Positions 754 to 16,557 of a stretch of 64,000 bases of DNA are shown piece after piece; position 1 is the stretch's first letter; the number at the start of each line of letters is the position of its first letter. The notes under the pieces were generated by a model. The model did no database searches, was not told the origin of the DNA, and was given only the letters and a program-made list of their open reading frames with translations. Position numbers and translations under genes: made by a program. This stretch comes from Urinicoccus massiliensis (GTDB lineage Bacteria > Bacillota > Clostridia > Tissierellales > Peptoniphilaceae): the NCBI RefSeq assembly GCF_900120405.1, contig NZ_LT635492.1, forward strand, positions 79,477 to 143,476. Reading direction: 5' to 3'.

Positions 754-788
754 GAAAAAATCTCCCCTGTATTTAACTGGGGAGATTT
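754..788 (-). terminator. Terminator of the toxin-antitoxin operon
   Basis: A 10-bp perfect stem, AAATCTCCCC with GGGGAGATTT, is followed by a T run in the minus direction (an A run at 755-760 on the plus strand). It overlaps the toxin stop codon, so it ends the minus-strand operon. Confidence 0.8.
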
Positions 789-1053
789 AAAATTTATCCA
801 GGATATCATGGTGTCCAATGTCTACAAGAAAGATCAATTCATTATTTTCATAAAACCAAATAATTCGAAGATCCATATTAATAGAAGATTCCCATATACC
901 ATCACTAGCTTGTATTTTCTTCGTTCTTAAAGATGGGTGAGTAGGATTTTCTACGAAAAATTCAAGTTTCTTTTTTGTTTGTTTCTTTTCAGAATCGGAT
1001 AGTTTTTTGTAATGTTTTTTAAAGGCTTTTGAATAAGTAATTTTATAGGACAT
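787..1053 (-). CDS. RelE/YafQ-like toxin of a type II toxin-antitoxin pair
   Basis: An 88-residue basic protein of RelE/ParE-superfamily size. It has a Lys-rich N-terminal helix pair, a central strand containing IWESSINMDLRIIW, and a C-terminal HHDILDKF motif like the His/Asp tail of YafQ-type mRNA interferases. In this family the toxin cleaves mRNA at the ribosome and is neutralised by a protein antitoxin. Its ATG overlaps the stop of the upstream antitoxin (TAATG), so the two are translationally coupled in antitoxin-toxin order. The family call rests on pattern and context. Activity cannot be judged from sequence alone. Confidence 0.8.
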   Translation of the reverse strand: MSYKITYSKAFKKHYKKLSDSEKKQTKKKLEFFVENPTHPSLRTKKIQASDGIWESSINMDLRIIWFYENNELIFLVDIGHHDILDKF

Positions 1054-1310
1054 TACTTATCTAATTCCTCAAATAGAGAGTCAATGGAATCAAAGATTGG
1101 TTGATCTCCATTTTTTATAGATTCTTTGATTTCTTTTACCTGAGCTTTTAAATTTTTTATGACATGTTCTGGATAGATTGCCACTGGAACCAGTACAATT
1201 TTTCCGTTATCTTCAATTACTTCAAATTGGTCACCTTGATTTAATTCCATAGACTTTACGATGTCTTTTGGAATAGTGACTTGTGATTTAGCTTTTAGTT
1301 CAACTAACAT
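1053..1310 (-). CDS. AbrB/MazE-family antitoxin
   Basis: An 85-residue acidic protein. The first 45 residues form a SpoVT/AbrB swapped-hairpin DNA-binding domain (KSQVTIPKDIVKSMELNQGD). The acidic C-terminal helix (about 60-85) is the expected toxin-wrapping tail. It sits first in a two-gene operon with the RelE-like toxin, preceded by AGGAGG and by a palindrome suited to autoregulation. AbrB-type antitoxins more often partner MazF, so the pairing with a RelE-like toxin is a mixed-type module. Confidence 0.85.
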   Translation of the reverse strand: MLVELKAKSQVTIPKDIVKSMELNQGDQFEVIEDNGKIVLVPVAIYPEHVIKNLKAQVKEIKESIKNGDQPIFDSIDSLFEELDK

Positions 1311-1646: not shown

Positions 1647-1958
1647 TTAGGAATCTTTTTTAACATTATACACTTCATCCAAGAACTCTTGAATGGTGTA
1701 TCTTCTGGAGTCTACACATTTATGTGCGACAGGACGATATATCAGACCGAAACGCTTAAATTCCATATTGACAAGTATGAGTGGATAGGTGTCATTCCAA
1801 TCTACACACTTAAATCCCTCAGATTTTAGAAATCTATAAAATGCCTTTCTATGCTTAGGATTCCTATCATAAACACCATATGGAATGGAGATAGGTTCTT
1901 CCCAGTAAGCATCATTGCATCTTTTCGCATAGTTTTCGTAATAAACTTCCATTAACAT
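1647..1958 (-). CDS. Unknown 103-residue protein under a SAM riboswitch
   Basis: I do not recognise the family. The protein is soluble-looking, with no signal peptide or membrane segment, and is rich in Tyr, Arg and Lys with single Cys and Trp residues scattered through it. The start at 1958 is set by AAAGGAG six bases upstream. The leader carries an S-box-like aptamer and an intrinsic terminator, so the gene is probably switched off when S-adenosylmethionine is plentiful. S-box genes normally act in methionine, cysteine or SAM supply. A role near that pathway, or in its sensing, is an inference from the control element only. Confidence 0.7.
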   Translation of the reverse strand: MLMEVYYENYAKRCNDAYWEEPISIPYGVYDRNPKHRKAFYRFLKSEGFKCVDWNDTYPLILVNMEFKRFGLIYRPVAHKCVDSRRYTIQEFLDEVYNVKKDS

Positions 1959-1985
1959 TTTTTTCTCCTTTCAAACTTTAGAGAA

Positions 1986-2125
1986 GAAAAAAGCACCCAT
2001 CGATAGATGGATGCAAGTTTAATATGTATCCATCGTACAAGCATTAGCACCTTTCCAAAAGGTAGGTTGCTGAAGGGTCGATGAGCTTGTCTCTCGCCTT
2101 CTCTTTATGGTAATTTCATTTTATC
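1986..2125 (-). ncRNA. S-box (SAM-I type, variant) riboswitch with terminator
   Basis: Read on the minus strand from about 2116, the leader has the SAM-I landmarks in order: AAAGAGAAGGCGAGAGAC, a GCTC segment, CCCTTCAGCAACC, then AAGGTGCTAATGC. GAAGG pairs with CCTTC (P2) and ACCT with AGGT (P3). A P1 helix can form between TACCAT and the ATGGATA that follows the core. That same GATGGAT can instead pair with ATCCATC of the downstream terminator stem (GCATCCATC / GATGGGTGC, then six T, at 1986-2014). This is classic S-box logic: bound SAM holds P1, the terminator forms, and transcription stops. P3 is short, so it resembles a compact variant class. Confidence 0.78.
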
Positions 2126-2447
2126 ACATTTCATTTCACTTGGCAAAATAGATATTTTGGATAAAGGGTTGCAATCTATACGACTGATTTTTCCGGCAAA
2201 GATGTCACTTTTTCATGGATAAAAACCCTTCTTCTAGACTTGTTAAAAGAAGAAGTCAAAGCACTTACACTTGTAGGTGCTTTTTAATTTTTAGAAGAAG
2301 GTAGTAGGTTTTTTCAAAAAATTTTAACCCGATACAATAGTTCAATAAAAGAAGACAATTTATAAGCAAATCTATAAGACAGAATAAAAATCCTAAAAAT
2401 AGGGTATGATAGTAAATAGAAATCAAATAAAAAAAAGGAGGAAAAGT
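2126..2447. other. Intergenic region with a plus-strand terminator
   Basis: This stretch separates the riboswitch leader from the SDR gene. It contains a hairpin terminator at 2261-2287 and a short open tract before it (about 2170-2289, no start codon with a ribosome site). An AT-rich region with a TACAAT -10-like element near 2331 probably serves as the SDR promoter. Confidence 0.45.
2261..2287 (+). terminator. Rho-independent terminator
   Basis: AAGCACTTAC and GTAGGTGCTT form the stem around an ACTT loop, followed by T residues. No intact plus-strand gene precedes it, so it may be left over from a lost gene. Confidence 0.65.
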
Positions 2448-10513: not shown

Positions 10514-13500
10514 ATGAAAAAGAAACGAGAAAGACCCATCGCAATGCTACTAGCAATTATGATGCTCGTAATGAACTTAATTGTAAGCCCAGTTTGGGCA
10601 GCGCCGGGAGATGTTGCGATAAATGAGACAAATTTCCCGGATGAAACATTTAGGGAATATGTAAAGACAAAATTCGATACGGACAAAAACGGCATCTTGT
10701 CACAAGAGGAATTGAATGACGTGACGAGTATCGAGGTGAGGGATAAAGGAATCACGACTCTTCAAGGGATTGAATACTTTACCGGGCTTATGGGGCTTGA
10801 TTGTTCAAAAAACAAATTGACCGCTTTAAACCTAAGTAAAAACACAAAATTATCATCCATTTACTGTGAGAAAAACCAATTGGAGAGTTTAGACTTAAGT
10901 CATAACAAAGACTTAGGAGTTATTATCTGTCGCCAAAACAAATTGAAGACTTTAGACTTGACGTATAATACAGAATTAAGAAGGCTTTTATGCTCTATAA
11001 ACCAATTGACTAATTTAGACTTAAGTACAAACTCAAAATTAACAGAAATTGATTGTGCATCAAACAAATTGAAGACTTTAGACTTGACGAATAAAACAAA
11101 CTTAGAAGAGCTTTATTGTGACCAAAACCAATTGACTACTCTAGAATTAACGAATGACACAAAATTAAAAATTCTTAGTTGTAGGTATAACCAATTGACT
11201 ACTCTAGACTTGACGAATAAAACAAACTTAGAAAAGCTTTATTGTGATTCTAACCAATTGACTACTCTAGACTTGACGAATAAAACAAACTTAGAAACTC
11301 TTCATTGTAGAGATAACCAATTGGCTACTTTAGACCTAAGTACAAACCCAAAATTAAAAGAAATTAATTGTGAAAAAAACAAATTAAGTGAATTAGACTT
11401 AAGTCATAACACAAACTTAGAAACTCTTGACTGTAGCGATAACCAATTGAAGACTTTAAACCTAGATACAAACACAAAATTAAGTCATCTTTATTGTCAC
11501 TCTAACCAATTGGCAGCCTTAGACTTGAATGATAACATAGATAGCATATCTTTTTATGGACCTTATCAAAAAATCTATGTCTCACTTCCGGTAGACAGCA
11601 CAAGCTTAGATCTTGCAACACTGGCAGATAACTTTGATTCAGAAAAGGTGAGTGATTTAAAAGGACAAACTATTACAGGCACTACTTTGTCACTTGATGG
11701 TCAGCCGAAGGAAGTGTTTTACAAATACAAGGTTAGTACAAACCGTGAATTATGGGTGACATTGAAAATCATCTATGGAGAAGCATTTAAAGTAACATTC
11801 GATAGAAACAAAGGATTGGGCTATATGGATCCTCTTAGCTTAAAAGCAGGTTCATCATATGAATTACCAACTTGTTATTTTACTCCACCGGAAGGAAAAG
11901 TATTTGATAAATGGGAAGTAAATGGAACAAAATACGACGCAGGTGATAGTATAACAGTAAATGGGGATATGACTATTAAGGCTATATGGAAAGTATTTGA
12001 AGAGATAGCCATATTAGAAATAAACGAAGATACCTTCCCAGATGCAAACTTTAGAAAATATGTTTCAGAAAAAATTGATACGAGCGGTAATGGCACTTTG
12101 TCACAAGAGGAATTAGATGCGGTGACAGCGATCAATGTAGAGAATAAAGAAATCACAGATCTTAAAGGTGTTGAACACTTTACTGAACTGACAAAGCTTA
12201 ATTGCAATAATAACAAATTGACTACTTTAAACTTGACGAATAACACAAAATTAGAAAATCTTTCTTGTTTGCATAACAAATTGAAGTCTTTAGACTTAAG
12301 TCAGAACACAAACTTAAAATCTCTTGACTGTAAACAAAACCAATTGACTGCTTTAAACTTGACGAATAACACAAAATTAATAAGACTTTATTGTTCCTAT
12401 AACGACTTGACTACTTTAGACTTAAGTAAGAACAAAAACTTAGGAACTCTTTACTGTAACCATAACAAATTGACTAATTTAGATTTAAGCCAGAACACAA
12501 ACTTAACATGGATTAATTGTCAAGATAACCAATTGACTAATTTAGACTTAAGTAATAATTCAAAAGTTAAGAGATTTGATGGATCTGGTCAAGTATATGA
12601 TATTAAAGTAAGTGGTAGTACCTTAAAATTTGACCTTAAATCACTACCTGGTAAATTTGATTCATCAATGGCAAGTGACTGGGTTGGTGGCAAAGTTGAC
12701 ACTGTTGACAGTAATATCTTGAATTTAAACAATGATCCAAAACCAACTGAAGTGAAATATAACTATAAGGTTAACAACGGCGACAAAAATATAGATGTTA
12801 CTTTAAAGGTTAAATATGGAAATTTTGTTACAATCACATTTGATGCAAACGGACACGGCACAGCACCAGCAGATATAACTGTAAACAAAGGCGAGCAAGC
12901 AACAGCACCAGCTGAGCCAACAGATGCTAATTACGATTTCGGTGGTTGGTATAAAGAAGCTGAATGCACAAATGCATTTAATTTCTCACAAGTAGTAAAT
13001 GATAATATAACACTTTATGCAAAGTGGACAAAGAAAACACCACCAACACCAGTAACAGTAACAATCACATTTGATGCAAACGGACACGGCACAGCACCGG
13101 CAGATATAACTGTAAACAAAGGCGAGCAAGCAACAGCACCAGCTGAGCCAACAGATGCTAATTACGATTTCGGTGGTTGGTATAAAGAAGCTGAATGCAC
13201 AAATGCATTTAATTTCTCACAAGTAGTAAATGATAATATAACACTTTATGCAAAGTGGACAAAGAAAACACCACCAACACCAGTAACAGTAACAATCACA
13301 TTTGATGCAAACGGACACGGCACAGCACCAGCAGATATAACTGTAAACAAAGGCGAGCAAGCAACAGCACCAGCTGAGCCAACAGATGCTAATTACGATT
13401 TCGGTGGTTGGTATAAAGAAGCTGAATGCACAAATGCATTTAATTTCTCACAAGTAGTAAATGATAATATAACACTTTATGCAAAGTGGACAAAGAAAAC

Positions 13501-15099: not shown

Positions 15100-16557
15100 A
15101 TGAAAAGAAATTTTAAATTTTTAATTATTTTTATGGTGGCGATGGTGGTTCTTGCTGGTTGCGGAAATGGTAACAGCTCGGCGAGGGTAGAAAATAAAGA
15201 TGCAAATGCAAATTCTGCGGTGGAAAATTCTAAGGAGACTTCTAAAGTTAAGGAAAATTTAAAGCCTGTTGACGGAGCGGTGATCGGTTCAATGTCTTCC
15301 TACGTTGAGGACAGAGAAGTTTGGAAGGACTTCGTCGATGAAAAATACATAGATTCTGCCAAGAGGGATTTTGGCATCCACCTGCCTAGGATTCTTTTGG
15401 ATTCTAAGGACGCCAAAGTGGCAAACGATGAGATTGATGGCTTGGTAAAAGATATAAAGAATCTATATACTACTCATAAAAAGGATATGGTAGATGACGA
15501 TATTGGAATAAACTCCTCTTTTTCCGTTTACCAAGATGACCATGTGCTAAGTGTCATGGTGGAAGTTGCCAATATTTGGGAGGGCGAGTTTCCGATTTAC
15601 AGAGTGTTTAACTTCTCTCTTCCTGATGGAAAATTAATAAATGACCAAGAGCTTATGAAGAGCATGGGCATAGAGAAGGAAGAGATCCTGGGGATGATTG
15701 AAAATAGTGTGCGTGAGGAACAATCCATGGCTGCGAAAATCTACTATAAAGATGTAACTGATTCTTCCTACATCTATAATCCTTGCAACCAGACCGGAAA
15801 TATTCTAAACGATCTATGGGATAGTTACGATTACAAAAATCGCCAAATTTTTATAGACGAAGTGGGCACACCTACACTTGCCTTTACTCAATATTTAAAT
15901 ATGGACATGGGACAGCTGCCGGATCTTCTAAAACTAAAGATAGATAGATTCAATAAAAGTGGGATTTCAGATGAATATTTAAGAATGGCAAGAAGACTCG
16001 GTGTCGATCCAAATAACGAAAAGTACAAGGCCTTTGTTATCTATCTCGGCTCTGCTTACGATGAGAATACCTTGAAAGCTCCTCTTGAAAAGTTACATGC
16101 TTGGACAAGTATTTTTACGAATTACGAAGATCCAAACCTGCTTATTTCAATGAAAGATGGCGAAGTCGGCGACAGACCATACTTAAATGGACAGGAATGT
16201 TATCTAGTAATTCCTAAGTACAAAAACGCTTCAGTTTCTCTAAAGGAACTGGAAATTACTAAAGATGGAAAATTAAAAGAGGTTGAAAATCTGTACCTAG
16301 ACGCCCTTTCAAGCAGTGGAATCACATTTGTCATGCAAAATATAAGTGACGTCGCTCCAAATGGCAAGATCACCATCAGGTACAGAGACGATACTTTTGC
16401 GTTCTCCCCTTCAATCAGTCTAAAGGACGGCAGTTTGGTGTTACCGGATGAAGTAAAAGATGGAGAAGGGATCCTCGATTGGAATGGTTTAGTTAAGGAG
16501 GAAGGCGATTCACAAACTATGTTTGATAGAATCATGTCCATAATGGGCAAGGGTTGA
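15100..16557 (+). CDS. Secreted lipoprotein of unknown function
   Basis: 485 residues from the ATG at 15100. A GTG twelve bases earlier is possible, but the weak GAGGG ribosome site suits the ATG. The signal peptide is followed by the lipobox VVLAGC, so the protein should be lipid-anchored outside the membrane. After a polar linker the mature part is a mixed alpha/beta region (about 60-480) with a DUF4163/DUF3298-like stretch (VYQDDHVLSVMVEV and YRVFNFSLPDGK). I do not recognise a catalytic motif. It lies in the same envelope cluster as the SPFH and zinc-ribbon genes. Confidence 0.75.
   Translation: MKRNFKFLIIFMVAMVVLAGCGNGNSSARVENKDANANSAVENSKETSKVKENLKPVDGAVIGSMSSYVEDREVWKDFVDEKYIDSAKRDFGIHLPRILLDSKDAKVANDEIDGLVKDIKNLYTTHKKDMVDDDIGINSSFSVYQDDHVLSVMVEVANIWEGEFPIYRVFNFSLPDGKLINDQELMKSMGIEKEEILGMIENSVREEQSMAAKIYYKDVTDSSYIYNPCNQTGNILNDLWDSYDYKNRQIFIDEVGTPTLAFTQYLNMDMGQLPDLLKLKIDRFNKSGISDEYLRMARRLGVDPNNEKYKAFVIYLGSAYDENTLKAPLEKLHAWTSIFTNYEDPNLLISMKDGEVGDRPYLNGQECYLVIPKYKNASVSLKELEITKDGKLKEVENLYLDALSSSGITFVMQNISDVAPNGKITIRYRDDTFAFSPSISLKDGSLVLPDEVKDGEGILDWNGLVKEEGDSQTMFDRIMSIMGKG

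Follow-up and report, generated by a model that had tools for sequence, protein, structure and literature searches.

A P4-less SAM-I riboswitch ahead of an orphan small-protein gene in Urinicoccus massiliensis, and a possible role of the protein in guarding SAM-dependent DNA methylation and restriction systems

Results

Organization of the locus

In this work, we analyzed a window of 64,000 nucleotides from Urinicoccus massiliensis (contig NZ_LT635492.1). A promoter-like sequence, a SAM riboswitch aptamer, an intrinsic terminator, the gene for an orphan protein of 103 amino acids and a toxin-antitoxin pair follow one another on its minus strand. The orphan protein (1647 to 1958) was delimited as an ORF, has profile homologues and a predicted structure, and is referred to here as family A (the letters A to D were coined in this analysis); its ORF starts at 1958 and is preceded by AAAGGAGA. 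The downstream neighbour is an AbrB/MazE-type antitoxin (1053 to 1310, minus strand; PF04014, E 9.4e-11), whose partner is a RelE/ParE-type toxin (787 to 1053, minus strand; PF05016, E 9.3e-6; TIGR02385, E 2.2e-8). In locus L008, a similar antitoxin ORF (2241-2498) was seen by eye downstream of the family A gene.

The leader contains a SAM-I aptamer devoid of P4

Methionine and SAM genes are the textbook targets of S-box riboswitches. The first-pass annotation of this DNA had proposed one ahead of a lone, uncharacterized gene, and the landmarks on which it relied, the GAAGG/CCTTC P2, CAGCAACC and AAGGTGCTAA, are found in the sequence. The Rfam scan gave a genuine SAM riboswitch match: positions 2113-2027 of the minus strand matched RF00162 (SAM, SAM-I) with 55.8 bits (E 3.5e-10), the gathering score being 44.4. 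RF00162 won the clan competition at this position and was the sole Rfam match over the cut-off on both strands of the window, so that the lack of any SAM covariance model match, named beforehand as a reason to abandon the proposal, was not what we observed.

The aptamer (2027 to 2113, minus strand) has in common with RF00162 the helices P1, P2a/P2b and P3, the core with its conserved GCAACC and GGUGC segments, the pseudoknot between the P2b loop and J3/4, and a terminator-type platform. P1 pairs CCAU (2110-2107) with AUGG (2033-2030) and the pseudoknot pairs CAAG (2089-2086) with CUUG (2041-2038), all on the minus strand. It differs from RF00162 in that this leader type lacks P4, forms a compact subgroup and precedes mostly genes for small proteins without known function. 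About 18 consensus positions corresponding to P4 are gone in the Rfam alignment, and P4 is also absent in the relatives aligned; it belongs to the RF00162 consensus and is dispensable for reaching the cut-off score. As P4 is not present, we filed the window aptamer as a P4-less variant and not as a typical SAM-I member. A variant had been suspected from the outset and this part of the suspicion stands, with P4 absent and the SAM-I pseudoknot kept and covarying, but the short P3 then held responsible is only slightly short.

The pseudoknot consists of four pairs, which were paired in 100% of the cells in 28/28 aptamers, and double changes occurred in three of the 28 aptamers, at two of the four pairs. 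It was left out of the construction of R1, a covariance model that we built from ten P4-less aptamers including that of the window, and 27 of the 28 aptamers counted are not in R1 (the exception being the window's). The other helices were fitted to R1 and therefore count less as covariation evidence. We infer that the P4-less form would bind SAM. In two aptamers (L152, 10001-10087; L147, 2293-2379), a C-G pair replaces G-C at the P3 position beside the CAACC core, both strands having changed.

SAM-IV and SAM-I/IV riboswitches have a SAM-binding core in common with the window aptamer. In the portions of PMC6890682 that describe them, P4 is missing from SAM-IV as well, which has P5/PK-2 in addition, and SAM-I/IV retains P4 and has no PK-1. 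The window aptamer has PK-1 and no P4, so that it was not assigned to SAM-I/IV. Regarding SAM-IV, the segment after P1 is made up of the spacer and the terminator, and the Rfam clan competition took RF00162. By the descriptions given in those portions of PMC6890682, the window RNA differs from SAM-I/IV and appears to differ from SAM-IV too.

Expression platform and predicted direction of the switch

An intrinsic terminator (1987 to 2014, minus strand) was found by folding and by a terminator scan, with a 9-bp stem at 2014-1993 and a U6 tail. Terminator-like sites in the 801 bases scanned numbered two (2014-1993 plus T6 on the minus strand and another on the plus strand) versus 0.4 ± 0.7 in shuffles. 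Folding also yielded an antiterminator (2006 to 2034, minus strand), in which the P1 3' strand GAUGGAU (2034-2028) pairs with the terminator 5' arm AUCCAUC (2012-2006); this pairing is exclusive with both P1 and the terminator. Folded alone, the antiterminator gave -8.4 kcal/mol and the terminator -14.3. The competition between P1 and an antiterminator, together with a T-tailed terminator, had been read from the leader beforehand, and both were recovered here (2034-2028/2012-2006 and 2014-1987). Among 11 leaders folded, the terminator was present in all 11, including L013x, where a cruder scan gave none, and the competing antiterminator in ten, the exception being the decayed copy L024. Upstream of the aptamer, a consensus scan detected a promoter-like sequence (2118 to 2146, minus strand) with a -35 TTGCCA (2146-2141), a -10 TAAAAT (2123-2118), a 17-nt spacer and a TG before the -10 (10/12 matches), promoter matches as a class being not above chance in the 801-base scan (three found versus 2.6 expected).

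In this classical OFF layout, plentiful SAM would hold P1, the antiterminator would be blocked and transcription would stop, while under SAM scarcity the terminator would be avoided and the 103-aa protein would be made. The arrangement suggests that the family A gene is induced at low SAM.

P4-less aptamers form a distinct subgroup

The same genome has two further SAM riboswitches, before metN and metK (ORFs read by eye), which score 22 and 16 bits with R1, versus 109.9 for the window aptamer, itself one of the ten training sequences. Across 130 genomes of the family, the distribution of R1 scores is two-humped, with 16 matches at or above 77.8 bits in 13 genomes (six of these 16 being training sequences) and 17 at or below 37 bits. 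Five of the low-scoring matches were read and all lie before metN-type transporter genes. Intact P4-less copies score 65-110 bits with R1 and the other SAM leaders listed from these genomes at most 37, and P4-less aptamers are thus a compact subgroup sharply apart from ordinary SAM leaders. Their counts are lower bounds, as the genomes searched are samples and the genome-wide R1 searches were strictly filtered.

The regulon set comprised 36 loci, namely the 16 strong R1 matches from the 130 genomes and 20 new ones class-wide, with first genes assigned mostly by eye and read at 35 of the 36; the locus left out, L111, has nearly the same aptamer as L110. Small proteins without known function are the first gene at 23 of the 36 loci (by eye): family A at six, family B at three and B-like proteins at two (L082, L137), family C at four, family D at three, a 70-83-aa family at two, and other small proteins at three (L120, L121, L135). 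metK stands behind the aptamer at three loci (L130, L136, L138), at one of them downstream of an N-formylglutamate amidohydrolase-like gene, and a SAM hydroxide adenosyltransferase gene at another three (L084, by Pfam; L089 and L110, by sequence similarity assessed by eye). The amidohydrolase-like gene alone accounts for two loci, and other genes for four (two G090 contigs, L129, L134). The finding of metK and SAM hydroxide adenosyltransferase genes under the same aptamer type ties this type to SAM. L084, L089 and L110 are from Peptoniphilaceae genomes without family A, and an ECF transporter component lies beside the adenosyltransferase in L084 and L089.

P4-less aptamers were also found in phage sequences. 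On the viral contig L077 one precedes the gene for a 143-aa protein, a faecal phage scaffold carries one (R1, 86.5 bits), and Ruminococcus phage NatCom_28274 has another (L156, 3005-3475; 96.6 bits with R1, 59.9 with RF00162). The first ORF behind the NatCom_28274 aptamer belongs to family C (hhalign, 99.7%); beside it are a 757-aa ORF, annotated as hypothetical and a C5 methyltransferase by our reading, and then a gene annotated as DNA methyltransferase. On the Psychrobacter plasmid pA53P4, a broken aptamer relic (L157, 3003-3077) scores 38.3 bits with R1 and falls under the Rfam cut-off; a stretch of 50 nt shares 94% identity with the aptamer's 5' part and the 3' part is degraded, as if it had moved across phyla and then decayed.

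The family A protein and its distribution

Searches with the family A protein returned no family at E<=1 in Pfam and NCBIfam and none at E<=5 in PHROGs. Among 5.8 billion proteins, seven homologues were found with the single sequence and 87, some of them fragments, with a profile of 22 sequences at E<=0.001; the 87 proteins have near-invariant residues in common. The AlphaFold2 model is confident (pLDDT 91.7, pTM 0.83), a PDB search with it gave no convincing relative, and neither a catalytic motif nor a fold match pointed to a biochemical function. The domain occurs in fusions as well: to Sel1 repeats in L012 (Pfam E 4e-39) and, by eye, in L014 and L022, and, in L019, to a segment whose match to HNH is below threshold; L020 is similar to L019 by eye.

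Anti-restriction DNA mimics of the Ocr/ArdA type carry a strong negative charge. The family A protein does not share this acidity, the median net charge of 87 homologues being -1 and that of the window protein +2, and it was rejected as a mimic of this type.

The closest viral models to family A are 81-83-aa proteins of Leuconostoc phage Ln-9 (E ~0.05). Among predicted viral structures, the uncharacterized Ln-9 protein A0A0D3MKV0 ranked second for the family A model (E 0.062, prob 0.97) and first for the family B model (E 0.0052, prob 0.99). Neither structural search gave a match at E<=0.001, and none of 50,697 phage records matched in sequence. The hhalign value of 26.6% between families A and B, their similar order of secondary structures and this shared weak phage match are only suggestive of a kinship between both families.

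Family A is present in 6/130 genomes of its own family, Peptoniphilaceae, in 3/391 of a class sample (all from its own family), in 1/398 of a phylum sample (the genome studied here) and in 2/250 and 1/250 genomes around two of the metagenome-assembled genomes (MAGs), the MAGs themselves counted. One scan of 84,980 species genomes gave 15 loci, whose hosts include Peptoniphilus genitalis, vaginalis and ovalis and MAGs named Oscillospiraceae, Lachnospiraceae and Phascolarctobacterium, where MAG-derived loci may be misbinned.

Conservation of the leader at family A loci

Nineteen distinct family A loci were compared (that of the window, L041-L045, L046-L056, L057 and L058; L052 spans only 3.5 kb). 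A P4-less aptamer lies directly upstream at ten of them, namely the window's own, L041-L045, L051, L054, L056 and L057; in L056 a family C ORF stands between the aptamer and the family A gene, and in L057 the family A gene is decayed and the aptamer was detected by R1 only (64.3 bits). The first-pass annotation had asked whether homologues share the leader. This holds for the other Peptoniphilaceae copies, 5/5 of which have it (RF00162, 51.8-54.3 bits), but not for nine of the 19 loci, which have no aptamer directly upstream. In two of these nine (L047, L048) it lies 5-6 kb downstream of family A, before another gene, and at the remaining seven (L046, L049, L050, L052, L053, L055, L058) no P4-less aptamer was found. 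None was found either in 18 control regions from the genomes of family A loci. The aptamers are nearly identical where family A proteins are only ~50-70% identical. At 15712-16370 of the L047 island, the P4-less aptamer is followed by the gene for a 163-aa protein whose MORN match is below threshold; in the L048 island the aptamer is at 12134.

Restriction-modification and defence genes in the neighbourhoods

DNA-methylation-based or defence systems (restriction-modification (RM), BREX, Hma, McrBC, Zac) were found near family A at eight of the 19 loci: type I RM in L045 (HsdM by Pfam), a type I REase in L047, McrBC in L048, a type I methyltransferase in L049, BREX in L050 (PglX-like methylase, PglZ, BrxL), Hma with its methylase in L054, Zac in L057, and in L056 a C5 methyltransferase and an LlaJI RM system alongside the aptamer-C-A order. 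A direct aptamer and such a system coincide at only four of the 19 (L045, L054, L056, L057), the family A copies near BREX, McrBC and the two type I systems of L047 and L049 having no aptamer directly upstream. AbiD is a neighbour of family A in L042, and an AbiD-like piece in L044. No such system was recognized at the window's own locus (the toxin-antitoxin pair aside) or in L041, L043, L051, L052 and L055, which were not profile-scanned one by one, and L046, L053 and L058 gave weak or generic matches only. Reading by eye, supplemented in part by phmmer, revealed no recognizable RM gene within ~19 kb to one side of the window's family A gene and 24 kb to the other; a protein with an N6 DNA methylase domain is encoded elsewhere in this genome. 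Family B is near RM genes in three of five loci, all three behind a P4-less aptamer: a REase accompanies two C5 methyltransferases in L107, type II methyltransferases are found in L108, and L109 has type III Res and Mod. No RM genes were seen by the B-like copies L112 and L148.

PADLOC families at E<=1e-15 amounted to 183 in 100 neighbours at the 13 non-Peptoniphilaceae family A loci versus 24 in 101 control proteins (11 regions of the same genomes), and in Peptoniphilaceae to 100 in 56 proteins versus 43 in 77 control proteins, largely due to one RM locus and AbiD; as these counts are restricted to ORFs of at least 200 aa within 8 kb and one protein is counted under many models, they indicate a trend and not a tested excess. 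Control regions also contain defence genes (HamA/HamB, a type IIG enzyme, a DruE-like helicase). Around other P4-less aptamers class-wide, 17 regions gave one weak HsdR match, with queries drawn from the test loci. Altogether, part of the family A loci lie in islands of defence genes based on DNA methylation, and families B and C also recur near DNA-methylation-based systems at part of their loci.

Discussion

Taken together, these results point towards a compact P4-less form of SAM-I that heads scattered small proteins. Several of these are encoded close to immune systems that consume SAM, namely type I, II and III RM, BREX and Hma, and a phage has one close to DNA methyltransferase genes. 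Small proteins of this kind likely help cells or mobile elements to cope with SAM shortage. The reading that we prefer, if tentatively, is that the P4-less aptamer is an OFF switch and that the protein made at low SAM guards SAM-dependent DNA methylation and restriction systems, on which it would act when SAM falls, keeping them safe. Two considerations led us to it: the enzymes commonly found next to it depend on SAM for the marking of self DNA, and expression confined to low SAM would bring the protein into play just when this marking fails. The target of family A would then be SAM-dependent DNA modification or restriction. If the protein does respond to SAM shortage, it would bear on how methylation-based immunity avoids self-damage, or notices an attack, when its cofactor is lost.

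A less probable account places the small proteins in SAM or methionine metabolism itself, where they might for instance restrain SAM-consuming enzymes or aid SAM synthesis when SAM is low; the RM surroundings would then be simply a place where mobile genes gather. The aptamer type does precede metK, SAM hydroxide adenosyltransferase genes with an ECF transporter component, and an amidohydrolase-like gene by metK, and many of the small-protein loci are without RM genes. However, families A and B repeatedly lie beside DNA-methylation systems, a placement that methionine genes do not require, and the patchy occurrence of family A (6/130 genomes of its family) is unlike that of housekeeping metabolism. 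The initial idea of a new member of SAM metabolism is less well supported: metK and adenosyltransferase genes do stand behind this aptamer type, but small proteins without known function prevail there, and family A is repeatedly found in DNA-methylation defence islands.

It might also be, although we regard it as improbable, that a SAM-destroying phage trips the switch and that the protein is an effector of abortive infection or counter-counter-defence. Phage T3 destroys SAM and blocks its synthesis, and its SAM lyase likewise ties SAM depletion to methylation-dependent defence, namely BREX and type I RM (PMC12707154, section 67). The lyase is a phage weapon, whereas a host gene induced by SAM loss is not described in sections 67 and 74 of that 2025 review, the latter of which counts the sensing of SAM degradation among the defences not yet identified (PMC12707154). 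Loci in defence islands, the AbiD neighbours of L042 and L044 and the L019 fusion, whose partner resembles HNH below threshold, would fit such an effector. On the other hand, the HNH-like fusions have no aptamer, ordinary starvation also trips the switch, and a phage itself carries the same switch, with family C. A wider proposal, in our view a long shot, is that one compact SAM-I riboswitch serves as a SAM-depletion alarm in clostridial mobile elements, immune islands and phages alike. On destruction or exhaustion of SAM, it would release small fast-evolving proteins (A, B, C and others) that control methylation-based restriction, and a riboswitch would here report the loss of the immune system's own cofactor.

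That the leader was merely copied from a SAM gene onto selfish cargo, giving ordinary S-box control of a mobile gene with no special role, agrees with the patchy distribution, the aptamer relic on the Psychrobacter plasmid and the nearly identical aptamers before proteins ~50-70% identical, which suggest mobility, but seems unlikely given that divergent loci retain both leader and protein, with compensatory RNA changes, and that residues are near-invariant over 87 proteins.

The combination of the aptamer model and a small ORF provides a handle for finding further genes of this kind. Other matches were seen in the course of the searches. A P4-less SAM-I aptamer of Mycoplasmopsis cynos (L159, 1999-2088) scores 78.3 bits with R1 and precedes the gene for a DUF4116 protein. 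In addition, two near-identical P4-less aptamers (L113, L114) occupy the ends of two small contigs belonging to a single genome, one of them before an AAA ATPase-like and a metallopeptidase-like gene (assigned by eye).
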